Assembly (NCBI RefSeq): GCF_000003815.2
Contig: NC_049997.1
Span: 14,548,666 to 14,612,665, forward strand
DNA length: 64,000 nt
Source: Branchiostoma floridae
Taxonomy: Eukaryota > Chordata > Leptocardii > Amphioxiformes > Branchiostomatidae
Direction of reading: 5' to 3'
Below, in pieces: positions 44,440-47,848 of the stretch (the stretch's first letter is position 1; the number at the start of each line of letters is the position of its first letter). A model generated the notes under the pieces. It ran no database searches, had not been told where the DNA came from, and was given only the letters and a program-made list of their open reading frames with translations. A program made the translations under genes and the position numbers.

Positions 44440-47400
44440 ATGAGGTAAGATCTCTTCAAAATCCGTTTTAATCTGCGTCAATCGTTGCTCGTTTTTAGCG
44501 AAACTGCACAAATGTTGACCATAGAAGAATGTAGATGTGTCACTAGAGTATATTTTGTGGAAATGTTTCGTTAGATCGTCGTAGTTTGGAGTGAAATGAG
44601 ACATGCAGTGACTGAAATAATGTGGAGCACGTCGGCCATGCTTTTTGGATACGTGCACGATCATGATCATCAAACATGTCAGAAATAAAACCTCCCTGTA
44701 GAAATCCAGCTCTAGGTTACAGTGCTGTGCTGTTTGAAACTGCCTCAAGGTCTGACGGTAAAAACTAACAAAAGTTACCTTTTTCTTTTGGCCAGACTTT
44801 AAGAAAAATTAAAAATTCACAAACCCCATGCCTTATGATCTCAAAGCAGATGTTTCGAGTTCAGTAGATGATGCATTTTACCCTAAGCCTTGCAATATCA
44901 GCTTTGAGCTTACAGTTGCTTACACATGAGAAACTCCTGCTATACTTATCTATAGTATTGTGTAGCAGAATATAACATAATTTGCATATATATAGCCAAC
45001 ATGTTGATATTATTTCCCCAAATGATTATTCTCTCCACAGTAAGATCAACAGGGACAACCTGTACGAGTCCGTGGACACGGTGCTCGCGTTCTCCAAGAA
45101 CAAGAAGCGCAAGTTCGTGGAGACGGTGGAACTTCAGATCGCCCTGAAGAACTATGACCCCCAGAAGGACAAGCGTTTCTCTGGCACCGTCAAGTAGGCA
45201 TACTGCTCCAACCTACTAGTTAGGTAGTCGCACCGTTGTGTGTGGCGGACCCCAACCCAGGGTCTTAAACAATCTGGGGAGGCAAGGGTGCCAATGTGAC
45301 CCAAGCCGTTATAGAAGGATTCCCACACTTAGCTGGGAAGGTTGCAAACTGGTACTTCTTCATTAAATAGTAGTTTGGAAGTATAAGATACAACTACATG
45401 TCAGTGCTCTTTTGGAAAATGCTTTTTGTTATCAAAAAGTACATGCACCTAGCTCTTATACTAGTTATAGTGAAACTGTTTTTTTTGGGGGGGGGGAGGA
45501 GGTTGAGAGGCTGCCTTCTGTTAAACTGTTCAAAATTAGCTAAGAAAGTAGTAATTTTGTAGCCTTCCAACATGATCTGTTTGGAGATTAAAACCATAGC
45601 ATATCACCAAACAACTTGATACCAAGGCAGTTCAGTGATGACAATATTCTGCATGTGTGCAGAGCTCGGCTATGAAGAGCAACCAGAAATAGCTCTAGAA
45701 TTACACTGAGAACCACGCCTGGTCAAAAATCTCAACACGCACTCACAGAAGCAAAATAGCGATTTCACAGTTATGTTGTTTGTACGAAGTGTTTTTGTCT
45801 CCATTTTTCAGGCTGAAGCACACGCCGCGTCCCAAGTACCGTGTGTGCGTGCTCGGAGACCAGCAGCATATCGATGAGGCCAAGGCCAATGAAATCCCCT
45901 GCATGGACGTGGAATCCCTGAAGAAGCTCAACAAGAACAAGAAGCTTGTCAAGAAGCTCGGTAGGTATACTGTAAAGTCATTTACTTACGTAAAAAGAAA
46001 AGTTTTTCATGCTGTTTTCCATTTGCGGTTGAAACAATTCCCTAGCACAGTAGTCGTACAACTCAAAAAGTCGATTCGAGTTAATTCGAGTCGGACATGT
46101 CACAGGAAAAATTGAACTGCTGCAAGAGTTATGGTATTTAAAGACTGTCATGCACAACACAAGCCCTTACAGCCAACCACAAATATTTGTAATAGTATAG
46201 TTTAGGCTTGTCTGTGTTTGTGCATGTATGTTTCTGCCGTTCTAATAAACACACTGCAATATTGCCGTAGTACAGTGTTGAAGAACGCAAGAACTTGCAC
46301 AAAAGCCCCTAAGAGGTGAAGTCTGCTATCTCTGACTACCATGTTAGGAAGAGCAAGATAAGAAAGCTGACAAGATTTTTCCTTCCTTTTATCTTCATCT
46401 AGCCAAGAAGTATGATGCATTCCTGGCGTCGGATTCTCTGATCAAGCAGATCCCCCGTATCCTGGGCCCAGGTCTGAGTAAGGCTGGCAAGTTCCCCACC
46501 CTCCTGACTCACAACGAGTCCATGACAGGCAAGGTGGAGGAGGTCAAGTCCACCATCAAGTTCCAGATGAAGAAGGTGAGAGTCAAGTAGACGGGTGTCA
46601 GTGTAGCCTGATTAGATCTCGCTTACAGCAGCCCACCTAACATCTGAGGGGCCAGCACATACAGTCAAACCTGTATTAGGTGCCACCTCTGCAGAGGGGC
46701 CACCTGTCCATAGTGGCCACTTTTTGTCGGTCCCTTGGGTATTTTATCTACAAGTTGCCACCTCTATACAGAGGCCACCTGTCTATAGTGGCCACATCTG
46801 TCCGGTCCCTTGAATGGCCGCTATAGACAGGTTTGATTGTACTAGTGCCAGTGCTTTTGCTTGTTTTAACATAATAATGATATCATTATTTCTAACAGAG
46901 ATCAAATGTGTTCTCAATGTGTTCTCAAGAAGTGTATGTAATATCTAGACTTGAAGTTTATTCTTGTAATTTTGTAGTGGAGCTTTTATTTTGTATTTTT
47001 TGGGGCAGGGTCAAACATTGTATCATCAAGAGTAGAAAGAAAAGTTTGCATGTAATCATAACACCAAGGCAGTTCAATGATGACAATATTCTGCATGTGT
47101 GCAGAGCTCTCGCTATGAAGAGCAACCAGAAATAGCTCTAGAATTACACTGAGAACCATGCCTGGTCAAAAATCTCAACTCACACCATTCCTACAATAAA
47201 ACAAGGCTCCACAGTAGGACAGTATTACTAACAGTTTGATATTGGTGTGCCCTAGGTCAAAGTTGACTTTCCTTATCTTGTTATGTTATTATGAGGACCA
47301 TGCTTTATACCATGTCCGTCATGTTTTGTTTATGTGTCAGGGGTCTTCAACTTTGACATATTACCCACATTGCATTACACTGCACTGCACATGCATGTAG

Positions 47401-47848
47401 TCTAAACTGTAAACTAACTTATTCCAATGTGGTGCAAACCAGTTGCAGAATTCCAATTACAGCCCAACTACTGTAATTCACCTTGTCATCTCGGTACCAA
47501 ATCTTAAACATCAGCAATTTATTTGTTATCGGCAATGATAACTTCACGTTCTACAGTCATCACCGTGAAAACTGAACATAGAAGTACATAGAAAACAATT
47601 AGGAATTACAGTAGCCTTCTCCCAAGTTTGTTTCAAATTGTCACCTTCTAACCATTGTTATTTATTGTGATGTTTAGGTGCTGTGCTTGTCTGTTGCCAT
47701 CGGACACGTCAACATGTCTGCGGAGGACCTGGTCGCCAACGTGGTTCTGGCCGTGAACTTCCTGATCTCCCTGCTGAAGAAGGGCTGGCAGAACGTCAGG
47801 GCACTGTACATCAAGTCCACCATGGGCCCCTCTCAGCGCCTGTACTAA
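44440..47848 (+). CDS. RPL10A: 60S ribosomal protein L10a (uL1)
   Basis: Five exons: 44440-44444 (ATGAG), 45041-45193, 45812-45960, 46403-46575, 47678-47848 (stop TAA 47846-47848). Together they make 651 bases, 216 residues, one short of the human protein as I recall it. The protein is the L1-stalk component of the large ribosomal subunit. Landmarks are [75 protein letters not shown] and [18 protein letters not shown]. The five-base first coding exon right after a TOP-like leader is typical of ribosomal-protein genes. The poly(A) signal AATAAA is at 47864-47869. Introns 2 and 4 each hold a box C/D snoRNA; intron 4 also holds a MITE. Confidence 0.97.
45630..45713 (+). ncRNA. Box C/D snoRNA, U45-like, copy 1 (RPL10A intron 2)
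   Basis: Box C GTGATGA is at 45635-45641 and box D CTGA at 45706-45709. The flanks GTTC (45630-45633) and GAAC (45710-45713) pair as the terminal stem, extended by AGGC/GCCT outside. The guide TAGCTCTAGAATTAC (45690-45704) sits directly before box D and is the exact complement of the universally conserved 18S rRNA segment GTAATTCTAGAGCTA. The fifth base upstream of box D (T45701) pairs with the second A of GTAA, which I count as A159 in human numbering, a known 2'-O-methyl site guided by U45/SNORD45. The snoRNA ends 98 bases before the 3' splice site, a usual distance for intronic box C/D RNAs. Confidence 0.9.
46660..46841. repeat. MITE-like element with TACAGTCAAACCTG termini
   Basis: Begins TACAGTCAAACCTGTATTA and ends TAGACAGGTTTGATTGTA, an imperfect terminal inverted repeat. 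Inside are repeats of GGCCACCTGTC(C/T)ATAGTGGCCAC. Lies in RPL10A intron 4. Related, more decayed sequences occur near 51502-51570 and 52806-52920. Confidence 0.75.
47072..47156 (+). ncRNA. Box C/D snoRNA, U45-like, copy 2 (RPL10A intron 4)
   Basis: Nearly identical to the copy in intron 2. Box C ATGATGA is at 47077-47083, box D CTGA at 47149-47152, with terminal stem GTTC/GAAC and the same guide TAGCTCTAGAATTAC. Differences are few (box C purine, one inserted base before CGCTATGAAG, a T for C after the stem). The guide and box D are fully conserved while the surrounding intron is not, as expected of a functional RNA duplicated within its host gene. Confidence 0.88.

Follow-up and report, generated by a model that had tools for sequence, protein, structure and literature searches.

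A probable SNORD45-type box C/D guide RNA, predicted to target 18S A152, in two introns of RPL10A in Branchiostoma floridae

The closest described systems are the vertebrate SNORD45 (U45) RNAs. In human, the sites given for SNORD45B are 18S A159 and U172 and that for SNORD45C is Cm174, and RABGGTB is the host of each (PMC3766210; PMC8393311). Methylation of C174 in human cells was described as variable and as raised on MYC overexpression (PMC8393311). Chicken GGgCD5, the counterpart of U45A/C, is found in two copies in introns 1 and 2 of RABGGTB and carries a 17-nt 3' guide to 18S A158 and a 13-nt 5' guide to U171 (PMC2653536). X. laevis was reported without Am159, Um172 and Cm174 (PMC8797249), so not all chordates carry these marks. 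Duplication of C/D snoRNAs within one host gene has been documented (PMC2653536), as has the movement of snoRNAs between host genes (PMC3511168). A table in the latter paper sets U45a beside Am512 and RF00279 beside U44, in conflict with PMC3766210, PMC8393311 and PMC2653536; contrary to that table, RF00279 is named SNORD45 by Rfam itself.

Analysis of a window of 64,000 nt (the whole stretch of B. floridae DNA under study) points to two copies of such an RNA inside RPL10A, and both very probably encode a SNORD45-type intronic box C/D guide that is predicted, from the genomic letters, to direct 2'-O-methylation of 18S A152 (Table 1). As with human SNORD45, this is a C/D guide with at least two members in one host gene (SNORD45B and SNORD45C in human), and as with chicken GGgCD5 the two copies occupy two introns of one gene. 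The preliminary description of the locus had expected a host unlike that of mammals, and the hosts do differ, RPL10A in amphioxus and RABGGTB in the listed human and chicken cases (PMC3766210; PMC2653536); residence in RABGGTB would not be needed for function. The host protein, assembled from three reading frames of the exons, was identified as ribosomal protein L10a/uL1 by a match across all 214 residues in a comparison with L10a/uL1 chains, and the intron numbers used here presuppose one exon upstream of 45041. Intron 4 also contains, near copy 2, a 60-nt direct repeat (46678-46812; two copies, 75 nt apart, 82% identity). Downstream of RPL10A, a long, almost perfect hairpin at 48060-48186 matches the MIR5200 model weakly, with 34.2 bits on one strand and 31.9 bits on the other (cut-off 70), and is more likely an inverted repeat resembling a mobile element than MIR5200. 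Among the titles and abstract openings of the open-access papers retrieved, none describes the RPL10A-borne amphioxus RNA, which is not thereby claimed to be unpublished. Passages of PMC2246290 and PMC1459141 mention no snoRNA within RPL10A, although this does not establish that there is none. In PMC11649923, on planarians, the two matches to 'Am159' seem to stand for Am1599, and its site list, unaligned to human numbering, is uninformative here.

In each copy a box C (RUGAUGA) and a box D (CUGA) are joined by a terminal stem, as is expected of a C/D snoRNA, and the near-identical C/D RNAs that had been placed in introns 2 and 4 by the preliminary description are borne out in their boxes, stems and coordinates. 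RNAs of this class also carry an rRNA antisense element of about 10 nt or more that ends just upstream of D or D', and here it amounts to 15 nt at D and 12 pairs at D'. Outside the short stem, ACC and AGGC pair with GCCTGGT to make an extended outer stem, an element able to compensate for an unfavourable splice-site distance of an intronic snoRNA; the distance between box D and the 3' splice site is 102 nt for copy 1 and 525 nt for copy 2. A box-pair scan of the + strand of the window returned four further C/D-like box pairs besides both copies.

Table 1. Positions in the window of the two RNA copies, their predicted parts and the host gene
Feature	Positions	Strand	Remarks
snoRNA core, copy 1	45630..45713	+	short terminal stem GTTC...GAAC, box C to box D
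snoRNA core, copy 2	47072..47156	+	short stem GTTC/GAAC, box C to box D
Box C, copy 1	45635..45641	+	GTGATGA
Box C, copy 2	47077..47083	+	ATGATGA
Box D, copy 1	45706..45709	+	CTGA
Box D, copy 2	47149..47152	+	CTGA
D guide, copy 1	45690..45704	+	15 nt
D guide, copy 2	47133..47147	+	
D' guide, copy 1	45647..45658	+	12 pairs
D' guide, copy 2	47089..47100	+	
Putative box D', copy 1	45660..45663	+	CAGA, degenerate; placed by position
Putative box D', copy 2	47102..47105	+	CAGA, degenerate; placed by position
Possible box C', copy 1	45670..45675	+	CTATGA; putative, weak match
Possible box C', copy 2	47113..47118	+	CTATGA; putative, weak match
Extended terminal stem, copy 1	5' arm 45621..45633, 3' arm 45710-45723	+	two-strand duplex -13.0 kcal/mol
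Extended terminal stem, copy 2	5' arm 47063..47075, 3' arm 47153-47166	+	two-strand duplex -14.1 kcal/mol
Entire shared block, copy 1	45621..45742	+	122 nt
Entire shared block, copy 2	47063..47185	+	123 nt
RPL10A intron 2 (houses copy 1)	45194..45811	+	618 nt; GT...AG; boundaries read from sequence
RPL10A intron 4 (houses copy 2)	46576..47677	+	1102 nt; GT...AG; boundaries read from sequence
RPL10A exons	45041-45193, 45812-45960, 46403-46575, 47678-47848	+	read from sequence

The guide upstream of box D was compared with an 18S sequence of this genome (L024, on contig C1), a stretch of 1815 nt delimited by conserved motifs at its ends. All 15 nucleotides of the guide form Watson-Crick pairs with 18S 149-163 in both copies. 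The +5 nucleotide, counted upstream from box D, has as its partner A152, in the GTAATTC segment, which we take to be human A159 through the shared segment. The claims of an exact 15-nt match to conserved 18S and of an A159 site thus hold when read against the rRNA of the animal itself. Of the 541 CTGA tetramers on both strands of the window, only the two that belong to the copies are preceded, at a distance of 0-3 nt, by 15 contiguous Watson-Crick pairs with 18S, and the next best after them are two with runs of 10; in five dinucleotide shuffles of the window, none of 2827 CTGA tetramers reached a run of 14 and two reached 13. That the match arose by chance, no RNA being produced, is hardly credible, since boxes, stem and a perfect 15-nt guide are all present twice. 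At least two kinds of 18S copy exist in this genome, since the C183 (L022) and C192 (L023) copies show several differences from the C1 copy (L024) within the first 150 nt; all three nevertheless have the same guide target segment, and the target pattern was found at 13 places in the genome. The 28S rRNA was not found in the genome with ten motifs, and the rRNA pairing results concern 18S.

A second guide, TTCTGCATGTGT, lies upstream of the D guide. It had been overlooked in the preliminary description, which was right about the D guide. The second guide forms 12 contiguous pairs (10 Watson-Crick, 2 G-U) with 18S 164-175, and the D and D' duplexes adjoin on 18S, covering 27 nt together. Reading CAGA as box D' places C167 at +5, presumably the counterpart of human C174; as this register is deduced from position and the box is degenerate, the D' guide may direct methylation of C167, a prediction less certain than that for A152. 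The amphioxus D' register would fit C174, whereas human SNORD45B is listed for U172, and the 5' target of chicken GGgCD5 lies two nucleotides from the predicted amphioxus one. Judged by the listed vertebrate targets, the amphioxus RNA would address the same pair of 18S segments, with its guides in the same order (D' guide 5', D guide 3'): it has a D guide to the counterpart of A159 and a 5' guide on the segment that holds the counterparts of U172 and C174. A fortuitous D' pairing, which would leave a single guide for A152, seems unlikely. It would be in keeping with the degenerate D' and C' and with other 18S pairings elsewhere in the RNA, namely an 11-nt pairing (9 Watson-Crick) with 18S 1638 that both copies share and a 10-nt run (9 Watson-Crick) with 18S 1251 that precedes another D'-like tetramer in copy 2. 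In a test devised after the pairing had been noticed, the interior of copy 1 was shuffled 2000 times; 13 of the shuffles gave a D'-adjacent run of 12 or more anywhere in 18S, which also leaves some room for coincidence, and 7 gave a run of 9 or more that began within 18S 155-175. The observed run, however, falls on the very segment that adjoins the D guide site, and its duplex is stronger with the amphioxus 18S (-16.1 kcal/mol) than with the human stretch (-11.1 kcal/mol), both of which argue for a double guide.

In the alignment of the blocks shared by the two copies, 117 positions are identical, 5 are mismatched and 1 is a gap. One of these 6 differences lies in box C (at the R position, where either letter fits), 2 lie in the D'-C' loop and 3 lie 3' of the core; both guides are free of differences, and boxes and extended stem are kept in both copies. 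Likeness between the copies ends sharply at the block edges, the flank scores being within the range of shuffles: 23.0 for the 300-nt upstream flanks (50 single-letter shuffles: mean 18.6, maximum 24.5) and 11.5 for the downstream flanks, 69 nt of copy 1 against 300 nt of copy 2 (shuffles: mean 10.7, maximum 16.0). The core had been called conserved and the surrounding introns not. The flanks indeed show no likeness beyond that of shuffles, but the comparison is between two copies and the shared block overruns the core by 9 nt upstream and 29 nt downstream, so the block may mark the extent of a recent duplication and not the action of selection. This overrun on both sides, followed by a sharp stop, would also be seen if one copy worked and the other were a recent duplicate, poorly processed or dead, whose identity reflects its youth, and the 525 nt from copy 2 to its 3' splice site would suit the same reading. 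We regard it as improbable, given that boxes, both guides and the extended stem are kept in both copies and that none of the 6 differences falls in a guide; it would be compatible with the core claim of a SNORD45-type guide directed at A152.

Copies beyond RPL10A were sought in the whole genome (513 Mb, 431 contigs). With copy 1 as the query, a DNA search (E up to 10, very common words skipped) found 2 places, both being the RPL10A copies. The pattern of guide plus CTGA, with at most 1 mismatch, occurs at 5 places (2 for the reversed-pattern control), among which the RPL10A copies are the only ones with a box C within 160 nt upstream. The 3 others (two on C8, one on C9) showed by eye no RTGATGA in the 160 nt upstream and gave no Rfam SNORD45 match at E up to 1, and were judged to be chance. 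Three places with a U172-type guide pattern (control 1) were also rejected, there being no TGATGA within 60 nt upstream in two of them or within 110 nt in the third.

With respect to family, Rfam at gathering score gave no match in the window. The SNORD45 model (RF00279) matched copy 2 at 22.8 bits (E 0.64), far under its cut-off of 42, and did not match copy 1 at E up to 1; a larger Rfam search at E up to 1 placed SNORD45 at neither copy. Run on the whole genome at E <= 0.001 the model gave no match, with 68 of 93029 candidates scored, and 14 control genomes were likewise without a match, which makes this negative uninformative. As the score is below the cut-off, the RNA is named after SNORD45 for its layout and its targets; the U45/SNORD45 likeness that had been proposed stands in these two respects and falls short in the Rfam comparison. 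We infer an RNA of SNORD45 type by target and layout, with strict SNORD45 homology left aside. The low score, the different host gene and the reported lack of the sites in X. laevis would all fit a functional analogue, that is, an unrelated C/D RNA which gained guides to the same 18S segment independently and does not descend from SNORD45. Such an origin appears doubtful, however, as the two guides fall on both adjoining segments targeted by vertebrate SNORD45, in the chicken order, and an independent gain of both is less likely.

A check of the amphioxus RABGGTB gene for another U45 had been proposed, and none was accepted. The PF00432 profile gave 9 matches on 3 contigs of the genome. The gene on C3 is the best RABGGTB match (eight main segments, 54.8-93.3% identity to the human sequence), and the one exon of it that was compared best matches Rab geranylgeranyltransferase beta chains; the other two PF00432 loci match human RABGGTB weakly. 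Rfam, exact-match and G-U-tolerant scans found no convincing SNORD45-like RNA in the 15 kb around the gene (C3:18207000-18222000). None of the 6 Rfam matches in this region (E up to 3) was a snoRNA, a result limited by the weak detection of the RPL10A copies themselves by Rfam. The exact-match scan yielded a single 9-nt match, CATGTATTA from the U172 segment, at C3:18212727, where a CTGA lies no more than 20 nt away, and two further rows on C2, all of which were rejected. The G-U-tolerant scan looked for duplexes that start at 18S 140-175 and precede a CTGA; its 6 rows, with runs of 9-10, belong to 4 CTGA sites; none of the 6 places A152 or C167 at +5, one (L010 7660) has a C-like box upstream, and they too were rejected. 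A RABGGTB intron also holds a long hairpin (L010 4225-4317) that scores 49.5 bits with the MIR6450 model (cut-off 70).

In the proposed mechanism, each copy would be trimmed out of its RPL10A intron and the trimmed RNA would assemble with the C/D core proteins and fibrillarin. The D guide would then pair with 18S 149-163, leading to methylation of A152 (human A159), and, with less certainty, the D' guide on the adjoining 164-175 would lead to methylation of C167 (human C174); transcription, processing and methylation are in this way predicted for both copies. Less certain as well are the history of the pair, which may have been born by duplication inside the host gene, and that of the RNA, which may descend from the SNORD45 ancestor and reside in RPL10A instead of RABGGTB in the amphioxus lineage. 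Since same-host duplication and host change are both documented for C/D snoRNAs (PMC2653536; PMC3511168), the RPL10A pair would be a further instance of a known pattern.

We give about even weight to the proposal that the A159/C174 double guide predates the vertebrates, changed its host between RPL10A and RABGGTB and disappeared in Xenopus laevis; if it is true, C174 methylation would be an ancestral chordate mark. The locus would offer another example of a guide RNA that resides in different host genes across lineages, by a mechanism that is itself ordinary. The reach of the A159/C174 pair is of some interest given its reported absence from X. laevis, and the lancelet would provide a checkable point of comparison for 18S methylations that vary in human cells or are reportedly absent from that species.
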